Below, in pieces: positions 21,245-31,802 of a DNA stretch of 46,727 nt. Each line of letters opens with the position of its first letter. Within the stretch, counting starts at the first letter, position 1. The DNA lies in contig NZ_JADNOH010000001.1 of the NCBI RefSeq assembly GCF_015557435.1, positions 1 to 46,727 on the forward strand. Reading direction: 5' to 3'. The DNA is from Collinsella aerofaciens (GTDB lineage Bacteria; Actinomycetota; Coriobacteriia; Coriobacteriales; Coriobacteriaceae). Below the pieces are notes generated by a model that did no database searches, was not told where the DNA came from, and was given only the letters and a program-made list of their open reading frames with translations. Made by a program: the position numbers and the translations under genes.

Positions 21245-21683
21245 CTATTCAAATGATCTTTTTCTCCGCCAAAGAGCAATAGTAGACAGCATTTATGTTG
21301 ACTATTTGCTTGCCATTCTTTCTTGCGCTGACAGCATGAGCGTTACTAAATTATTGGTTTTAACATTCTTGTCGAAATCAATCGAATCTCATGGAAACGA
21401 GCTGTTGAACGGTAGGTGCTCAAAAAATCTAATCGAGAGAGCTGCCTGCGCGGTTTCTGGTTCTTATAGCTCTTTCTTATATGAGCTTCAATATTCAGTT
21501 GAAGCCATCGAGATAGCCAATGTGGGCGGTCTCATTGCTATTGAAGATGCTTTTGTCCGCCTCACTAACGAGGGACGAACTCAGGGCTGCAGGGTGAATA
21601 ATTCGTTTATCTCAAAATTGATAAGAGAAGTCGCTTCTCTAGACGATAAATATGTTCTGTCGGAGATGATTCGTAATGTTTAG
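21237..21683 (+). CDS. Middle component of an ABC three-component-type system
   Basis: A 148-residue, mostly helical protein (VDYLLAILSCADSMSVTKLLVLTFLSK) without recognisable catalytic motif. Size, position between an effector-like gene and an SMC-like ATPase gene, and 8-base overlaps on both sides fit the 'middle component' of ABC-3C systems. These are small, fast-evolving helical proteins that link sensor ATPase and effector. The ATG at 21237 lies within the stop of the preceding gene. A longer frame from 21141 would overlap it by about 100 bases. Confidence 0.55.
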   Translation: MISYSNDLFLRQRAIVDSIYVDYLLAILSCADSMSVTKLLVLTFLSKSIESHGNELLNGRCSKNLIERAACAVSGSYSSFLYELQYSVEAIEIANVGGLIAIEDAFVRLTNEGRTQGCRVNNSFISKLIREVASLDDKYVLSEMIRNV

Positions 21684-23397
21684 CATTGAGTGCTTGGAAC
21701 TAATCTCTTGTTCTGGGGAGTCGTTTAGATACTCCTTTTCGAGCGGAGTTAATTACATTCAGGGTCCTAATAGCTCTGGAAAAACCGAATTTTACAATTT
21801 TCTTGACTATATGCTCGGGGCTGAGAAGAAGAAACTATCCGAGTCGCCTTGGTTCAAGGGGTCGTTACAGGCGGCCAAGATGCAGATCTCTTTTAATGGT
21901 CATGGTTTTTCCTTGTATCGCGATTTGGCTGGCGATGAGTTTGGACTAGTAATAGATGGAATACCTTATAAGGTATCTGATCTCGCGGAATATAGAAATT
22001 ACCTCAATACGCTGTTTCTGGAATCGGCGGATGACCCTACCAACCTCTCTGAATATGTCGGCCAAGAGCTGACATATAGGACGTTCACCTTATTTTCTTT
22101 TCTAAGCGAAGCTACGGTCGGCCGAATTAGTGGCTTTTTCAGCAAACTTCTTGAAACAAAATATCGAGTAAAACAGAGACCCTTATTTGATTATTTGTTT
22201 AGCATCAATCCGGATCGAATCGCGTTCCTTCAGCGCAAGATAACCGAACTTGGCAAGCGAGCTCGCGAGCTAGAATCTCAACGTGACTTTTTCAATCATT
22301 ATTTAGACGCAGTTAATCAAGAGCTTGCAAAGCTCGGAATCGTCGAGCGTTTCGATGGCAGCAATGCTGCTGTCATATCTGAATTGATTGAGACGGCTGC
22401 TATCTCCATTAATCTTGATTCTTCTTCGAGCTTGATGGCAAACGATGTTGTTGAGGCGGATCAGCTAAGAAACGATATCAAGGCGCAGAAGCAAATGATT
22501 CGCGAGCTTAGGGGGACAAAGGCTCAGGACGAGAAACGGTATCGCCTTCTGGATAGGTTGAACTCATTGATTGCTGACGATGATTCTAGGGCTGATCTTT
22601 TGGGCCAAACTTGCAATCTGCTTGGTGAAATTGAAGCGTCGATACCCAGAAAAGACCTTGATTTTCAAAAGGAATTACTTGCTCGCAAAGTGAGCAGATT
22701 AACTCAACTTGAAGCTAAGTTAACGGCTGCAAACGTGGTGTTTAATCCATTAGACTTTAATGAAAAAAGCAAGGCTGTTTTGGTGTCAAATGAGTATTTA
22801 TCCCAGTATTTGGCGCTCTACAAGCCCGATGATCTTGATGATATAAAAAAGGAGATTTCTCGTCTAAAAAAGGAGCTTCTAAACCTTAAGCATTCTGATG
22901 ATGATATTTCTATCTATTCAATTTCTGATACCGTAACCGATCTGTACCACTCGGCTTCTCAGGTGTCCTCCTTTGTTGAATCTGATTTTAAGCAACTTGA
23001 TTTTCATATCAAGTTTCAAAAGGAAGGAGTGGGGCTTCAACCCACCTTTTCCGAAGGGGACGATAGCGTTGACGTGTTTACTGGAAGTCGCGCTCGTCAT
23101 ACTTTGATGCAGATCTGCGGTTATCTCGCCTTCATGCGTTACTTACTTCAAAAGCGTAACGTTCCGTTTGTTCCCCTCCTTGCATTCGATCATGTCTCGT
23201 CGCCATTTGATGACGGAAGCTGTAGGGCGATAGGAGCGATAATCTCGAAGTTTTATTCGCTTGTGGATAAAAAAGAAGTACAGCTATTTTTGTTTGAGAC
23301 TGAAGAGCCGGATGCTTTGGGCGTTGATGTAGATAAGTATATTTCTCTTGTTTCAAACGGAAGAACTGGTTTCAACCCATTCTACAAAGCTGACTAA
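21676..23397 (+). CDS. SMC/Rad50-like ATPase of an ABC three-component-type system
   Basis: A 573-residue ABC-type ATPase. Walker A is at residues 30-38 (GPNSSGKTE). The central region of about 200 to 430 is a long coiled coil (ELGKRARELESQRDF, KKEISRLKKELLNLK). The C-terminal ATPase half contains SRARHTLMQICGYLAF in the signature region and a Walker B-like LLAFDHVSSPFDD. The residue after the Walker B Asp is His, where most family members have Glu, so hydrolysis may be slow or the Glu may come from elsewhere. It is the last gene of the operon and overlaps the middle component by 8 bases. Likely a DNA- or phage-structure sensor. Confidence 0.75.
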   Translation: MFSIECLELISCSGESFRYSFSSGVNYIQGPNSSGKTEFYNFLDYMLGAEKKKLSESPWFKGSLQAAKMQISFNGHGFSLYRDLAGDEFGLVIDGIPYKVSDLAEYRNYLNTLFLESADDPTNLSEYVGQELTYRTFTLFSFLSEATVGRISGFFSKLLETKYRVKQRPLFDYLFSINPDRIAFLQRKITELGKRARELESQRDFFNHYLDAVNQELAKLGIVERFDGSNAAVISELIETAAISINLDSSSSLMANDVVEADQLRNDIKAQKQMIRELRGTKAQDEKRYRLLDRLNSLIADDDSRADLLGQTCNLLGEIEASIPRKDLDFQKELLARKVSRLTQLEAKLTAANVVFNPLDFNEKSKAVLVSNEYLSQYLALYKPDDLDDIKKEISRLKKELLNLKHSDDDISIYSISDTVTDLYHSASQVSSFVESDFKQLDFHIKFQKEGVGLQPTFSEGDDSVDVFTGSRARHTLMQICGYLAFMRYLLQKRNVPFVPLLAFDHVSSPFDDGSCRAIGAIISKFYSLVDKKEVQLFLFETEEPDALGVDVDKYISLVSNGRTGFNPFYKAD

Positions 23398-23779: not shown

Positions 23780-25405
23780 ATGCTCAATGGATTTCAGTCG
23801 AAAGCGGATCTGGCTGGGTTTCTTGACCTGTCCTTGGAAAAACTTGACCTCTTTGTAAATCCAACTTCCATGTATCAGCTATATAGAAGTAGATTGGTGC
23901 CAAAAAGATGCGGTGGCTATCGAGAGCTATTGATTCCAAGGTCTGATCTAAAAAAGGCTCAAAGAATTATCGCCTGTGAGCTTGAAAAAAGCTACAGCCC
24001 ATTGCCTTGTGTGCACGGTTTCGTTAAAGGTCGGTCAATTAAAACAAATGCCGAAACTCATGTTGGCTCACAAGTAATTGTCGGCTTGGATATTAAGGAT
24101 TTCTTTCCTTCAATTTCGTCAAAACGAGTATACGGCCTTCTTATTTCCAAGAGGCTGGGTCTAACCCCTGAGGTTGCATTCTGTATTTCGAGACTTGTTG
24201 CGACGCCGAAAGGGCTTCCCCAGGGCGCCCCCTCATCTCCTGTTATTTCGAACATGATTTGCCTCGGTATGGACAAGCAGCTCATGCATCTATTCCATGA
24301 GTATCATTACCAATATTCACGATATGCGGATGATCTTACGTTCTCATTTAGAAGTTCCTTCTTCTTTTACCGACACTTTTATTCAGGCGGAAAGCTCAGA
24401 TTGCCTAATAAGCTACGAAACGCAATTACTAACTTCCATGGGATTGCGTCATTCGAGCTCAACGAAGATAAATCTTTTTATAGTTTCAGTTTTTCAAGAC
24501 AGCTAGTCACGGGCGTTGTCTGCAATAAAAAGACGAATATAAAACGTGAACAATATCGTCGTCTTCGCTCAACGCTGCATCGACTAAGTGTCGGTGATTG
24601 TAATGGCGCAATGGGTTGCTATTACGGAAAATCCGTTGGCGAGATAACCGACGCAGAGATTAGAATGTTCGAACCATCTCTCCGGGGAAGTCTAGATTAT
24701 TACAAGTCCCTTATTAAGGACCCATGGACATCGGGGCCACTCATGCGTTTGGGCAGTTTGTACAACAATTCAAAACCAGAAGACGCACCCGTTTTCCCAG
24801 TCGCACTTCATCAAGACTCGATTCTGTATCTTGAAGGAGTAGATTGCGAACAAAACCCATTTGAGGGACTGGGGTTTTACTTAACCGGCTACGGTCTTGT
24901 AACGGCATGGCATGTGATATGCGATGCCGTTTCCCGCGATATGGAAAGCGGGGAAATAAGAATTTTTAGCTCAAACAAGACACCGCTTGCTAGGTTTATA
25001 TATAGCAACGACCTACTTCAGGAGAATAAACGCGATGCTGCGATACTAAAAGATGTACCCTCTGAAATGATAAAGAACACTCCTCAGCTTTCGCCAAATA
25101 TTGATTTACCTACAAAGGGGGAGAAGATTACTGCCTACCAGCATCATTTTTCCGAATCTGGATTCAGCTTTGAACTTCACGGTGGGGAACTGCTCAGATT
25201 GGGAGACCCAAATGAAGAGGGTACGCTCTGTTATACGAATTGTTCATTTATGCACGGAATGAGTGGCGGGCCAGTGTTTAATGGTATCGGGCAGGTAATC
25301 GGCATAGTACATAGCGCGACCGAGCAGGGAAAACTGGGATCATTTCTTCCTTTAAGGGATTGCTTTCGTTCAACTGACGTTTATGGAAAGTGGATTATCT
25401 TCTAA
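23780..25405 (+). CDS. Retron reverse transcriptase fused to trypsin-like serine protease
   Basis: A 541-residue two-domain protein. Residues 1 to about 315 are a retron RT with NAETH (90-94, the NAxxH signature), LDIKDFF (Asp at 104 and 107), LPQGAPSSP, the YADD active site (182-185) and VTG (243-245, hallmark of retrons). Residues about 335-541 are a trypsin-like protease: His378 in LVTAWHVI, Asp419 in NKRDAAIL, and Ser495 in MHGMSGGPVF, so the triad is complete. The ATG at 23780 is preceded by AAGGAT. The RT copies part of the upstream ncRNA into msDNA; the protease is presumably the toxic effector, held in check until phage infection disturbs the msDNA complex. The role split is inferred from other retrons. 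Confidence 0.93.
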   Translation: MLNGFQSKADLAGFLDLSLEKLDLFVNPTSMYQLYRSRLVPKRCGGYRELLIPRSDLKKAQRIIACELEKSYSPLPCVHGFVKGRSIKTNAETHVGSQVIVGLDIKDFFPSISSKRVYGLLISKRLGLTPEVAFCISRLVATPKGLPQGAPSSPVISNMICLGMDKQLMHLFHEYHYQYSRYADDLTFSFRSSFFFYRHFYSGGKLRLPNKLRNAITNFHGIASFELNEDKSFYSFSFSRQLVTGVVCNKKTNIKREQYRRLRSTLHRLSVGDCNGAMGCYYGKSVGEITDAEIRMFEPSLRGSLDYYKSLIKDPWTSGPLMRLGSLYNNSKPEDAPVFPVALHQDSILYLEGVDCEQNPFEGLGFYLTGYGLVTAWHVICDAVSRDMESGEIRIFSSNKTPLARFIYSNDLLQENKRDAAILKDVPSEMIKNTPQLSPNIDLPTKGEKITAYQHHFSESGFSFELHGGELLRLGDPNEEGTLCYTNCSFMHGMSGGPVFNGIGQVIGIVHSATEQGKLGSFLPLRDCFRSTDVYGKWIIF

Positions 25406-26859: not shown

Positions 26860-26984
26860 CGGAAGTATGCGGCAAATTCTGGAATCCCCGAGCACAACGG
26901 CTTTTCCACATATAGGATCCGCAGGTAGAAGCATTGCGGCATTCCGGAGCGCTCGGCACGCCAGGGATTTGCCGCATACTTCCG
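26860..26984. repeat. 125-bp palindromic repeat element, copy A
   Basis: The ends are CGGAAGTATGCGGCAAAT (26860-26877) and its exact reverse complement (26967-26984). The interior shares CCGAGCAC and CCGCAGGTAGA with copies B (31543) and C (31678). The unit has no coding frame of note. Size, terminal inverted repeats and multiple copies suggest a MITE or REP-like element. Confidence 0.85.
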
Positions 26985-27026: not shown

Positions 27027-27054
27027 TTGATTGATGCTATTTAAGGTCTATAAT
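27027..27054 (+). promoter_or_regulatory. Promoter of the first AAA/RloB pair
   Basis: TTGATT (27027-27032) and TATAAT (27049-27054) are 16 bp apart. Transcription would begin near 27061, leaving about 48 bases of leader before the ATG at 27109 and ruling out the in-frame ATG at 27031 as the start. Confidence 0.65.
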
Positions 27055-27108
27055 CAAATAAAAACTCTGAAATATCTTTTCAAAACAATGAAAGGAATTT
27101 TGAGGACG

Positions 27109-28326
27109 ATGCTTTGCCAGTTTACCTTCAGGAACTATAGATCCTATCGCGACGAAACTGAGCTTTCCATGCAGGCAACATCGATGAGGGAGTTCGAGCG
27201 CTCCCTTATAGAGTGCCCTGACGGGCAGAGCTTCCTTCCGGTGGCTGCGGTTTACGGGCCTAACGCTGGCGGCAAGTCTAACCTGCTCGAGGCTCTTGAC
27301 TATATTCGTTCGGCGGTGGCAAGGCCGATCAGATTGTTGTCTGCCAGCACTGATGCGCCAGAAGGTAACCGATCTTCAATACCCCGTTGCTCTGCGTTTG
27401 AGTTCGATGACGTGTCGGCTGCTAAGCCCACCGAGTTCGAGCTCTACTATCGCGCGGGTGAGCATGAGTACCGCTATGCCCTGTCCGTGCATGCGGACGA
27501 GATCGTGTCCGAAGGCCTTTGGCGACGAAAATTGGGAGCATCACGCACGGCGATGCTGTTCGAGCGTGAGGGCGCAGAGGTTGAACTCGGTCCCACGCTG
27601 AGTAAGCTCGTGACGGCTGCGAGATTCAACCCGAGGCTGCCGTACCTGTCGTTTCTCTGCATCAACTTTGACGTGCCGGTGGTCAAGGAGGCTGCCAGCT
27701 GGTTTCTTGACGGGGTGTTCCTGAACTATAACAGCTCCTATCTGGAGCAGATGCTCGAACAATTGCTCGATGAGGATGACTCACCCGAGGTCACGCGTTT
27801 TTTGCGCGCCGTTGATGTACGTATTGATGGCTTCAGAGTGGAGAGGGCGCCGGAGTGGCGCGGCCAGCGCGTCTTCGTGAGGCACGAGGTGGGCGGCAAG
27901 GCGTACGAGCTGCGTTTATCCGAGGAATCTGCCGGAACCCAGAAGCTCATGGGGTTGGCTGCGTATCTGATGACAGCGCTTGAGCGTGGTGGCACCGTTG
28001 TGGTAGACGAGCTCGACGCCAAACTGCACCCGAAGCTTCTTCGCTATGTGATTCTGCTGTTTAAGGATCCTGGGGTCAACAAGAGTGGCGCGCAGCTCAT
28101 CTTCTCGTCCCAGGATGTGTCAACCATGCGAAACGATGTGTTCCGCCGTGACGAGATATGGTTCGCTGCGCGCGGCGAGGGGGAGGCGAGCCAACTGTGG
28201 TCTCTCGCCGACATCCACGAGGCAAACGGTAATCTGGTAAGCAAGAACGCGGCTTTCGACAAGCAATACCTTTCCGGTCGCTACGGCGCCGATCCGTATC
28301 TCACCCGCATCGAGGAGTGGGATTAG
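27109..28326 (+). CDS. AAA-family ATPase, RloA/AbiLi-like
   Basis: A 405-residue ABC/OLD-type ATPase. The N terminus (LCQFTFRNYRSYRDETELSM) is typical of AAA_21/AAA_15 family members. Walker A is at 50-57 (GPNAGGKS), the signature region reads RLSEESAGTQKLM, Walker B is at about 293-300 (TVVVDELDAKLHP), and SSQDVSTM follows where a His switch is often found. ATG 27109 has GAGG just upstream. The next gene starts one base after the stop and encodes an RloB protein. The pair matches RloA/RloB, known as AbiL (AbiLi/AbiLii) in abortive infection. High GC compared with the ATPase gene at 29597. Confidence 0.85.
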   Translation: MLCQFTFRNYRSYRDETELSMQATSMREFERSLIECPDGQSFLPVAAVYGPNAGGKSNLLEALDYIRSAVARPIRLLSASTDAPEGNRSSIPRCSAFEFDDVSAAKPTEFELYYRAGEHEYRYALSVHADEIVSEGLWRRKLGASRTAMLFEREGAEVELGPTLSKLVTAARFNPRLPYLSFLCINFDVPVVKEAASWFLDGVFLNYNSSYLEQMLEQLLDEDDSPEVTRFLRAVDVRIDGFRVERAPEWRGQRVFVRHEVGGKAYELRLSEESAGTQKLMGLAAYLMTALERGGTVVVDELDAKLHPKLLRYVILLFKDPGVNKSGAQLIFSSQDVSTMRNDVFRRDEIWFAARGEGEASQLWSLADIHEANGNLVSKNAAFDKQYLSGRYGADPYLTRIEEWD

Positions 28327-28327
28327 C

Positions 28328-28996
28328 ATGGTGGCGAAGAAGTCGAAGGGCTGGCGTAGCGGCAAACGAGAGGGCCGCTCGCGCATGGTTCAGATGACGC
28401 GTCATCTTGTAGTGAGCGAGGGCAAGGAGACCGAGCCTCGCTACTTTGAGGGTGTGCGTGCGGCGTTGGGTGCGGCGAACGAGCGTAAGGTTGCCATTGT
28501 CGTTAAGGGGACCGGCAAACACACACTTGACCTACTTGACTTTGCCGTCGAACATTGCCGCTATGCGCCCGAGACATTCGACCATGTGTGGCTCGTGTAT
28601 GACAAGGATGACTTTCCTGCGTCCGACTTTGACGCGATGGAGCGCAAATGCGACGAGCTCTCCGATGGTTCGAGGACCTTCCATGCGTTGTGGTCGAACC
28701 CCTGCTTCGAGCTGTGGCTGCTTCTGCACTTTCGCTACACGACCGCGCATATGTCCGCGTCCGACTGCCAGCATGCCCTCGCGCAGGAGATGTCGAAGAA
28801 CTTGGGCATCGAGTACCGCAAGAACCTTGACGGGATGTTTTGGGCAGTGGATGATAGGCGAGGCGAAGCATTGCAGCGTGCTGGGCGCCTCGCCGCGTAC
28901 CATAGGGAACTGGGTAACATTAAGCCATCTGCGCAAAACCCTTCAACTAAGATTGGCGAGATATTCGATGTGATTGGGCCGTATCTGGTTGGATAG
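28328..28996 (+). CDS. RloB family protein (TOPRIM-like), AbiLii-like
   Basis: A 222-residue RloB-family protein. The basic start is followed by the family signature LVVSEGKETEPRYFEGV (Glu at residue 31), then HVWLVYDKDDFP with the acidic pair, and SNPCFELWLLLHF. The S-E-G and D-K-D-D elements correspond to the metal-binding acids of a TOPRIM fold, as found in OLD-type nucleases. It is presumably the nuclease or RNase arm controlled by the ATPase encoded just before it. About 540 gene-free bases follow. Confidence 0.88.
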   Translation: MVAKKSKGWRSGKREGRSRMVQMTRHLVVSEGKETEPRYFEGVRAALGAANERKVAIVVKGTGKHTLDLLDFAVEHCRYAPETFDHVWLVYDKDDFPASDFDAMERKCDELSDGSRTFHALWSNPCFELWLLLHFRYTTAHMSASDCQHALAQEMSKNLGIEYRKNLDGMFWAVDDRRGEALQRAGRLAAYHRELGNIKPSAQNPSTKIGEIFDVIGPYLVG

Positions 28997-29539: not shown

Positions 29540-29598
29540 ATTAGACTCTCCTATCTCTTGCCGTAATATAATTACGGCAAGAGATAGGAGAGTCTAAT
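29540..29598. promoter_or_regulatory. 59-bp perfect palindrome over promoter, ribosome-binding site and start codon
   Basis: Two 28-base arms (29540-29567 and 29571-29598) are exact reverse complements around ATA. The right arm includes the ribosome-binding site (ATAGGAG) and the first two bases of the ATG at 29597. TAGACT (29542-29547) and TAATAT (29564-29569), 16 bp apart, could be the -35 and -10. In that case the palindrome is an operator and the normal mRNA starts within the right arm. Any longer read-through transcript would fold into a 28-bp hairpin that hides the start. Regulation by either means is inference. Confidence 0.8.
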
Positions 29599-30697
29599 GC
29601 TTAAGTGTTTTACTGTTGATGGCTATAGGAATTTTCCGAATCCGGTTACATTTAATTTTGCGGCTTCTCGTGATTACCAGTTTGCAGAAAATAACGTTAA
29701 AAACGGAACCGTGAAAACCGCGCTTTTGATCGGCAGAAATGCGTCTGGTAAATCAAATTTTGGTTCAGCTTTATTCGACATTACGCTCGGCTTTCCAAAG
29801 GCATTCGATTATCCTGACCAGGATGATCGTCTATTTTTGAATGCTGATTGCGGGCGAGGCACAGCACGGTTCACCTATGTCTTTGAATTTGACGGTCGCG
29901 AAATCAATTACAGCTATGAAAAGACTTCTCCCACTACTTGGTTTCACGAGAGCCTATCGATTGATGAGAGCCTCATTTTCGATTTCAATAACGCGCGCGG
30001 CGTTTTCGTAGAGAACCACCTTGAACGAATCGGTGCAGCTGGGATCAATTTTGAATTCTCCGATACTTCGCTGAGCCTTCTTTCTTATATAACGAGTAGC
30101 CTTCCAACCAATGTTTTAGGCATCTTGGCTGAATTACGCCGATTTGTCTCGCACATGAGGCTGATTCGCATGGAAGGATTTCGATTAAAGGGGTTTGAAA
30201 CAAGAAAGGTGGTCGACAAAATCATACGCGAGAACAAAGTTGCGGAATTCGAGTCATTTATTCGCAATTTTGGAGTCGATGAGTCTCTGATCGTTATTAA
30301 AGAGTCCGACGGCTCGCCTGTTTTGTATTTCAATCATCCCATGCGATGCATCCCGTTTGTCGAGGCATGTTCTAGCGGTACAAGAACTCTGGTTAAGTTA
30401 TTCTCTGAGCTTGAGCTTAACGAGTCTGCCAGCTTTTTGTTCATAGATGAGTTTGACGCTTTTTGTCACTTTGAGATGGCGGAGAGCCTTTTGAAGCTCT
30501 TTGCTTCCAAGGCATCTTGTCAGATACTGTGTTCCACTCACAACACTTCGCTTGTTAAGAATGGCGTTATGCGGCCTGACTGCGTATATCAAATCTCTGC
30601 AAAAAATGGCATTCGAACCTTGGCCGATTCCACCGATCGTGAGTTGAGGCTCGGCAACAACATTGAAAAGCTCCTCCGTGCCGGAGAGTTTGAGTAG
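29597..30697 (+). CDS. AAA-family ATPase of a second ATPase/TOPRIM pair
   Basis: A 366-residue OLD/AAA_21-type ATPase. KCFTVDGYRNFPNPVTFNF is the usual N-terminal strand pair. Walker A is at 46-54 (GRNASGKSN), the signature region EACSSGTRTLVKLF, Walker B ASFLFIDEFDAF, and the switch CSTHN. Its start codon is buried in the 59-bp palindrome. The stop is two bases before the next gene. It is more AT-rich than the RloA-like gene and only distantly similar to it, so the two pairs are separate acquisitions and not a duplication. Confidence 0.87.
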   Translation: MLKCFTVDGYRNFPNPVTFNFAASRDYQFAENNVKNGTVKTALLIGRNASGKSNFGSALFDITLGFPKAFDYPDQDDRLFLNADCGRGTARFTYVFEFDGREINYSYEKTSPTTWFHESLSIDESLIFDFNNARGVFVENHLERIGAAGINFEFSDTSLSLLSYITSSLPTNVLGILAELRRFVSHMRLIRMEGFRLKGFETRKVVDKIIRENKVAEFESFIRNFGVDESLIVIKESDGSPVLYFNHPMRCIPFVEACSSGTRTLVKLFSELELNESASFLFIDEFDAFCHFEMAESLLKLFASKASCQILCSTHNTSLVKNGVMRPDCVYQISAKNGIRTLADSTDRELRLGNNIEKLLRAGEFE

Positions 30698-30699
30698 TC

Positions 30700-31518
30700 A
30701 TGAATAGAGCGTCTGAAAAGAACGTCCTGCTTATTGTTGAAGGGGCTAAGCGCGAGCCTCAGTTGATGGAGCGATTGTTTGAATCATTTGACCTTTCAGA
30801 CAATTTTCAAATTGTTCCAGTCAAGATCAACGTTCACGATTTTCTAAATAAGCTCTTTCAAGAATACGGTTGCGATTTTGAGGCCGTTGATCTTAAGCCC
30901 TTTGTTGCTGAGCTTCTTTCGGACAAAGATGATGCGGCTCAGCTTCTCGAATCAAGCTTCACGGACACTCTGCTCATATTTGACTTAGATCCTCAGGACA
31001 ATCGGCTCGATTTTAAACGGCTTGAGCTAATGCAAGACTATTACTGCGATAGCACTGATATGGGCCAGCTATATCTAAGCTATCCATCGGTTGAAGCGTA
31101 TCGTGATTTCGATACCTTTGGATATTCGTCGCTAGATGACGCCCTCGTTCCTTCAGATGTGATTTTTGGTCAACGTTCGTACAAGGAGTGGGTTGCCAGA
31201 AGGGGAGATTCGCTTGCGGATATCGATCGCATTGATGGCTATACATTTGCCTGCATTGTTGCCGTTCATGCCCTGAGATCGCTTTGGTTAACTAATGAGC
31301 AGGTGACGCAAAATGCAAAAGAGTCTTTGGTCGATTTAGCCGGGACTGTGATGAACATTAATCATTCGGAGCTATTGCTCAATGAGATTGACCGTCTGAA
31401 CAATGATTCATTTTGCGCCTGCTGCACCTGCTTATTCTTCATTGCAAATTGGCCTAAGCGGCTTTACGACATTTTGAACAAGGCGATTAAGAGGGGGTTG
31501 GGTATTCGTTTGTTCTAA
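30700..31518 (+). CDS. TOPRIM-like partner of the second AAA ATPase
   Basis: A 272-residue protein whose N terminus NVLLIVEGAKREPQLMERLF gives the V-E-G-x3-E element of a TOPRIM or RloB/AbiL-type fold. TLLIFDLDPQDNRLD provides the D-x-D acids, and LYLSYPSVEAYRDF a further family-like patch. The C-terminal 100 residues are helical with a short cysteine cluster (CACCTC). Not RloB by length or end sequence, so it is best called a TOPRIM-like effector of an AbiL/PARIS-style system. It is translated two bases after the ATPase stop. Confidence 0.65.
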   Translation: MNRASEKNVLLIVEGAKREPQLMERLFESFDLSDNFQIVPVKINVHDFLNKLFQEYGCDFEAVDLKPFVAELLSDKDDAAQLLESSFTDTLLIFDLDPQDNRLDFKRLELMQDYYCDSTDMGQLYLSYPSVEAYRDFDTFGYSSLDDALVPSDVIFGQRSYKEWVARRGDSLADIDRIDGYTFACIVAVHALRSLWLTNEQVTQNAKESLVDLAGTVMNINHSELLLNEIDRLNNDSFCACCTCLFFIANWPKRLYDILNKAIKRGLGIRLF

Positions 31519-31542
31519 AGAGTCTCCTTCGCCCTTTATTTT

Positions 31543-31666
31543 CGGAAGTGCGGGGAAAAATTGAAAACCGCCGAGCACAACCTGATTTTTTGCAACAAAA
31601 CCGCAGGTCGCGGAAGCACAAAGCAGGGGTCTGGCCGGCTGATCTCGGCTTTACCCCGCACTTCCG
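31543..31666. repeat. About 124-bp palindromic repeat element, copy B
   Basis: CGGAAGTGCGGGG at the left end pairs with CCCCGCACTTCCG at the right; two more flanking bases also pair. The interior shares CCGAGCACAAC and CCGCAGGT with copies A and C. Both arms differ from copies A and C at the same positions, yet stay complementary to each other. It lies 24 bp after the TOPRIM-like gene. Confidence 0.85.
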
Positions 31667-31677
31667 AAATCGCCCGT

Positions 31678-31802
31678 CGGAAGTATGCGGCAAATTCTGG
31701 AACCACCGAGCACGCCGCCATTTTTGCGCAAAGAAACCGCAGGTAGACGCGTTGGCGCTACTCGGCATGGTCGGCCAGCTCTGATTTTGCCGCATACTTC
31801 CG
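31678..31802. repeat. 125-bp palindromic repeat element, copy C
   Basis: CGGAAGTATGCGGCAAA at 31678-31694 pairs with TTTGCCGCATACTTCCG at 31786-31802. The ends and first 25 bases are almost identical to copy A, 4.8 kb away. It sits in tandem with copy B, 11 bp apart, before the pel promoter. Confidence 0.85.

Follow-up and report, generated by a model that had tools for sequence, protein, structure and literature searches.

The perfect palindrome at the start of the PDC-M12 operon probably derives by over-extension from a 17-bp operator, 5′-CCGTAA-W5-TTACGG-3′, which travels with this operon; a complex encoded by the operon would bind it and, most likely, repress its own transcription. The element was analyzed within the whole 46,727-nucleotide stretch of DNA (hereafter the window) and in homologous loci of other genomes. 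It reads ATTAGACTCTCCTATCTCTTGCCGTAAT-ATA-ATTACGGCAAGAGATAGGAGAGTCTAAT, with all 28 arm pairs matching around a 3-nt centre, as the first-pass annotation had described. Its length is indeed far beyond chance: simple arithmetic gives an expectation of about 6e-13 per 46.7 kb for two perfect 28-bp arms with the spacing fixed, and the window contains no other perfect inverted repeat of such size, the next close ones being 70-87% complementary. A ribosome-binding site lies in the right arm, as do the first two bases of the start codon (ATG), again in agreement with the annotation. Candidate -35/-10 boxes had also been placed in the left arm and centre. A TATAAT sequence is present at the centre, but a promoter scan of the window recognised no sigma-70-type -35/-10 pair around the palindrome. 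Positions are given in Table 1.

Table 1. Positions of the palindrome, its parts and the two operon genes in the window
Feature	Position	Strand	Remarks
59-bp perfect palindrome	29540-29598		left arm 29540-29567, centre 29568-29570, right arm 29571-29598
Conserved core CCGTAA-TATAA-TTACGG (candidate operator)	29561-29577		single exact copy in the genome; conserved 5′ of PDC-M12A homologues
TATAAT, centre of palindrome	29567-29572	+	possible -10 box, putative; from sequence
Ribosome-binding site AGGAGAG in right arm	29586-29592	+	from sequence; paired in RNA fold
PDC-M12A, 366-aa ABC-type (Rad50/PtuA/AriA-like) ATPase	29597-30697	+	first gene; PADLOC 8.6e-89; candidate operator binder
PDC-M12B, 272-aa TOPRIM/RloB-like candidate nuclease	30700-31518	+	second gene; PADLOC 4.5e-28; candidate co-binder

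The palindrome is not an assembly artefact, because three other genomes of the genus (G043, G033 and G009) carry it with arms of 22 bp, and one of them, G043, is a single-contig assembly. An artefact, which had been named beforehand as grounds for rejecting the element, is thus ruled out by its presence in independent assemblies, with the exception of the exact arm length in the window's own assembly. Long perfect palindromes are common at the ends of mobile elements as well as in chimeric assemblies, and a recombination end had been among the meanings suggested at the outset. The element, however, is present as a single perfect site in each genome, lies 5′ of the same gene in every case and has no partner at the 3′ end. 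Together with the independent assemblies, these observations leave only a negligible probability that the palindrome is an artefact, a recombination end or a transposon end. In two relatives with about 40% protein identity the palindromes differ in sequence, and the core 5′-CCGTAA-N5-TTACGG-3′ is common to both.

A search of homologous ATPase loci for the palindrome had been set in advance as a test, and the homologues proved to have the core. The dyad was scored over 12 positions in the 200-260 bp before the PDC-M12A gene in 103 loci, which were gathered by similarity to the query and from genome and viral collections; the counts are not independent. A best dyad of at least 10/12 was found in 98 of the 103 loci, with a gap of 5 bp in every case, and 64 loci have a perfect core. 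For comparison, such a dyad was detected in one of 103 stretches taken from inside the gene and in 4 of 880 shuffles; other upstream regions in these loci had it in 5 of 417 cases. The core is absent from five of the 103 loci (L042, L044, L059, L069 and L106). It is located farther from the gene, at -227, in L060, and two tandem cores (offsets -19 and -73) were seen 5′ of PDC-M12A in L064 and L060. Hosts of the core-bearing loci belong to at least six bacterial phyla (Actinomycetota, Bacillota, Fusobacteriota, Pseudomonadota, Spirochaetota and Acholeplasma/Izimaplasma-type bacteria) and to archaea of the Methanomassiliicoccales/Thermoplasmata group. The core also precedes homologues on Acinetobacter and Pectobacterium plasmids, on a Fusobacterium replicon and in Vibrio filamentous phages and, in a weaker form, on small E. 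coli plasmids.

As the 103 loci had been picked by similarity to the query, a reverse test was run on an unbiased sample comprising 345 genomes from a single order. Five of these have PDC-M12A, and in all five a perfect core lies directly 5′ of the gene (hypergeometric P 6e-9). A perfect core was found in ten of the 345 genomes; the five without PDC-M12A equal the number obtained with a reversed control pattern (five), so that perfect sites away from the gene occur at chance level. Among 23 genomes chosen for carrying PDC-M12A, 13 of 14 perfect sites adjoin the gene, and in the window's genome 5′-CCGTAAN5TTACGG-3′ occurs exactly once. We also considered the core as a general phage element. The exact 17-mer is present in 69 viral contigs, in five of them next to PDC-M12A; many of the others have it inside reading frames, and it was treated as a chance occurrence there. 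The site has the two properties sought in a self-regulated operator: it is symmetric and positioned at the operon's own promoter, and it is found essentially only with the PDC-M12 operon.

Position relative to promoters was analyzed in 88 distinct loci. In 49 of them the core ends 6-7 bp 5′ of a TTG[AC] sequence, mostly followed by N17-TATAAT; a TTG[AC] anywhere 3-10 bp past the core is found in 66% of loci versus 8% in shuffles. The core in those 49 loci would span approximately -58 to -42. Since it is located 6-7 bp upstream of a near-consensus -35 box, it is not transcribed from that promoter. The arrangement upstream of -35 is that of Bacillota. In Vibrio phages the core overlaps the presumed -35, and its right half could itself serve as -35, while in Coriobacteriia 19-34 bp separate its end from the start codon, and in two cases it comes just past a TATACT box. 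The centre is A5 in 38 loci and T5 in 31, i.e. it is strand-neutral, and the two strands are thus equivalent. The half-sites are 11 bp apart. Second, weaker sites (score of at least 9) are present at offset -22 in 6 of the 88 loci, some of the six being related to one another; every other offset within ±60 bp is represented by at most two loci. The phasing to -35, the A5/T5 centre and the helical spacing are marks of a symmetric protein sitting on one face of the helix, and fit an operator read as double-stranded DNA.

These data bear on the operator reading of the first-pass annotation, which is strongly supported by conservation, promoter placement and specificity for the 17-bp core, but not for the 59 bp as such. 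The core could instead be an activator site, at which the defence complex or another factor, bound around -58 to -42, makes contact with RNA polymerase and turns the operon on, for example during infection. The tight 6-7-bp phasing to -35 in Bacillota is typical of polymerase contact and would suit activation too. However, the promoters downstream of the core already come close to consensus (TTGAC-N17-TATAAT), and the positions in Coriobacteriia and over the presumed -35 of the Vibrio phages suit repression; an activator encoded by the host would, moreover, give no account of conservation across bacteria and archaea. The varied positions of the core fit promoter blocking better than activation, and we regard an activator site as unlikely. 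The mechanism we propose is that a symmetric complex of operon-encoded protein (M12A, M12B or both) binds the core as double-stranded DNA at or next to the promoter, contacting two half-sites one helical turn apart. The bound complex would most likely repress its own transcription, so that a potentially toxic ATPase-nuclease pair is kept low until needed.

The long arms appear to have a different origin from the core. Arms reach at least 4 bp past the core in 22% of loci, versus 1.5% in a null in which left and right flanks were mixed between loci, and the copied flank often holds -35 or, in Coriobacteriia, the ribosome-binding site. Comparison of the window's left arm with its relatives revealed five adjacent substitutions, GCAGG to TAGAC, every one of them matching the right arm. 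Template switching at quasi-palindromes, which is known in E. coli (PMC7202029) and in yeast (PMC8604942), leaves clustered, complementary changes of this kind. The clustered complementary changes in the left arm thus point to template switching as the origin of the long arms: a hairpin-templated replication error would have copied the ribosome-binding-site side of the core to the other side, giving the 28-bp arms. The 59-bp length therefore looks like a local template-switch extension, mainly a mutational outcome over a selected core.

Folded as RNA, the full palindrome pairs its ribosome-binding site and reaches -53.2 kcal/mol (z -9.75); a very stable hairpin enclosing the ribosome-binding site is also predicted for G010/L043. 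Such hairpins, together with covariation of the extended arms, would speak for an RNA element, acting either as a 5′-leader hairpin in which the ribosome-binding site is concealed or as a substrate for the TOPRIM-like nuclease. However, in most Bacillota loci the core is 5′ of -35 and hence outside the mRNA, its centre is A5 or T5 equally, and the spacing of half-sites, like that of second sites, corresponds to whole turns of the helix. The arms of L008 do not include the ribosome-binding site, and Rfam returned no family at gathering score for the palindrome; its matches, miRNA-like or to other hairpins, fell far short of that score. Judged from this geometry, an RNA role could not be the common function of the core, and an RNA element is an improbable explanation overall. 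The distance from core to -35 and the strand-neutral centre speak against a phage-sensing RNA switch. The idea of a shield silencing read-through mRNA fares better in part: it cannot be a general function, given the 49 of 88 loci in which the core is 5′ of -35, and it is possible in the Coriobacteriia copies only. Under the operator reading, mRNA started upstream may hide its start site in the long arms as a by-product or a second safeguard, and silencing of such mRNA is plausible as a side effect in the window's lineage.

The first gene of the operon had been annotated as an AAA-ATPase defence gene. The Pfam name stands (AAA_21, 1.1e-18), although the protein is better described as ABC-type (Rad50/SMC/PtuA/AriA-like), and defence is a candidate role: by its PADLOC assignment, PDC-M12 is a candidate phage-defence system, on which our search of the open-licence literature found no paper. 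M12A matches the PADLOC PDC-M12A profile over its full length and far better than the AriA profile (1.9e-18); the former profile is also matched by 61 of 61 aligned homologues. Structure prediction used inputs without plasmid-derived rows, and the M12A model has a mean pLDDT of 91. PtuA of retron complexes gave the best alignment with this model (Z 18.7); the heads of Rad50 and SMC proteins and the PARIS protein AriA (VIA, Z 16.7) align with it as well. The M12B gene begins 3 nt past the M12A stop codon. Its product has VEG and FDxDPQ motifs, and RloB-like Pfam matches were obtained in 23 of 51 homologues; DUF4435 was matched by none of the 51 M12B proteins. No significant solved relative of M12B was found by sequence, and Foldseek gave no match to its model at E ≤ 0.001. 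A second structural comparison retrieved OLD and AriB TOPRIM chains weakly (Z 3.6-4.2), among unrelated folds.

PDC-M12 operons were observed on several kinds of replicon. They are the main cargo of approximately 4-kb plasmids of E. coli and Raoultella (L027, which is the E. coli plasmid pYZLc4-1_4k, L028 and L029); in E. coli they were found in 9 of 5426 genomes, on plasmids only. Three Vibrio filamentous (Tubulavirales) phages (L032, L128 and L129) have PDC-M12 and the core as cargo, with the deposited annotation 'Paris_II AAA_21'. In the window itself an AbiL system (AbiLi/AbiLii) is located at 27031-28996. A 125-bp inverted-repeat element with ends CGGAAGTATGCGGCAAATT, copies of which at 26860-26984 and 31678-31802 bracket the AbiL and PDC-M12 segment, looks like a MITE-type repeat; further copies of this length were found on contigs C46 and C62, and C76 and C80 have single ends. 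A related stretch, TGCCGCATACTTCTG, was seen 5′ of PDC-M12A in two other loci (L004 and L005). Right after PDC-M12B, at 31540-31669, there is an imperfect inverted repeat with 54-nt arms that are 70% complementary. Farther upstream, a gene for a reverse transcriptase fused to a trypsin-like protease domain (23780-25405; PADLOC RT-Protease_XI, 2.5e-100) adjoins that of an LmuB-like ATPase of a Lamassu-type family (21676-23397; 4.6e-30).

The neighbourhoods of the core were analyzed for a protein that could read it. Apart from M12A and M12B, no gene family is shared by more than four neighbourhoods, the larger ones lying within one phage group, and a dedicated regulator beside the operon was therefore rejected for want of a recurring third gene. 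Because the core is conserved from Clostridia to archaea, its reader must be inherited with the site. Only M12A and M12B recur beside it, and they are therefore the likely binders: M12A, M12B or their complex is the best candidate, which would amount to autoregulation without a recognisable regulator gene. No helix-turn-helix family is among the Pfam and PADLOC matches of the operon proteins, whose folds are an ABC ATPase and, weakly, a TOPRIM-like one, and the M12A model has no added helix-turn-helix. Core loci seemingly without M12B were considered as a pointer to binding by M12A and proved uninformative. In one of them (L103:3001-4131) an M12A with an M12B-like C-terminal end is a natural fusion by internal deletion, with the core retained; another, L068, has a truncated M12B, and L127 probably does too.

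We know of no sequence-specific binding as a trait of Rad50/PtuA-like ATPases. It is a tentative proposal, and one that we consider somewhat less likely than not, that here such an ATPase with its TOPRIM-like partner acts as a sequence-specific regulator. A symmetric ATPase dimer would clamp the 17-bp dyad with its A-tract centre, and the DNA-bound state would couple promoter control to phage sensing, one complex being effector, repressor and sensor from bacteria to archaea. A related explanation is that the core is a docking or sensing site and not a transcription operator, where the complex rests inhibited until freed by phage factors such as DNA mimics. The single site per genome would agree with this, as would the inclusion of PARIS among the nearest relatives with known triggers: there the DNA mimic Ocr binds AriA (structure 8v45; PMC12409363). 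Strict promoter placement is, however, explained more simply by transcription control, the support for docking is by analogy, and we consider it very unlikely.

Since regulatory sites normally diverge fast, it is unusual for one cis-element to remain readable in several bacterial phyla as well as in archaea. Such readability implies that the reader travels with the operon, though the operon contains no recognisable regulator. The prediction is that the ATPase/TOPRIM pair binds 5′-CCGTAA-W5-TTACGG-3′, for which the natural 4-kb E. coli plasmids with the operon offer an easy test system. The core may also be used as a tag in sequence searches for PDC-M12 operons and as a route to studying how ATPase-nuclease defence systems spare their host.

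Among the first 12 papers listed by a broad search of the open-licence literature, none was relevant to the core motif, and the open-licence literature searched yielded neither a conserved PDC-M12 operator nor sequence-specific autoregulation by an ATPase/TOPRIM defence pair. PARIS (AriA/AriB; PMC9122126, PMC12409363) is likewise an ATPase and TOPRIM nuclease pair, and AriA is a structural relative of M12A. M12A has the AAA_21 domain, one of the two (AAA_15/AAA_21) by which a PARIS ATPase is defined, but the DUF4435 (PF14491) partner required for PARIS (PMC9122126) has no match in M12B, and the two PARIS papers do not contain any palindrome or inverted repeat. AbiL also combines an ATPase with an RloB-like protein and differs in that the core is absent, being found in 0 of 11 AbiL loci. 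Type II toxin-antitoxin systems, for example MazE6 on an 18-bp operator (PMC9477884) and yefM-yoeB (PMC7730913), are autoregulated and resemble PDC-M12 as toxic two-gene modules with an operator of similar size at their own promoter. In those systems the antitoxin has a DNA-binding domain, whereas no such domain was recognised in the two PDC-M12 candidates, the ABC ATPase and its TOPRIM-like partner. Repressor control of phage-defence operons is likewise described for BrxR of BREX (PMC9122589) and RptR of a restriction-modification island (PMC12255303). Those are dedicated regulators with genes of their own, whereas no such gene recurs beside the PDC-M12 core, which is conserved across phyla and archaea. 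Dedicated repressors of defence operons and antitoxin-mediated self-regulation are thus already known; what appears to be new is a conserved candidate operator of the PDC-M12 operon.
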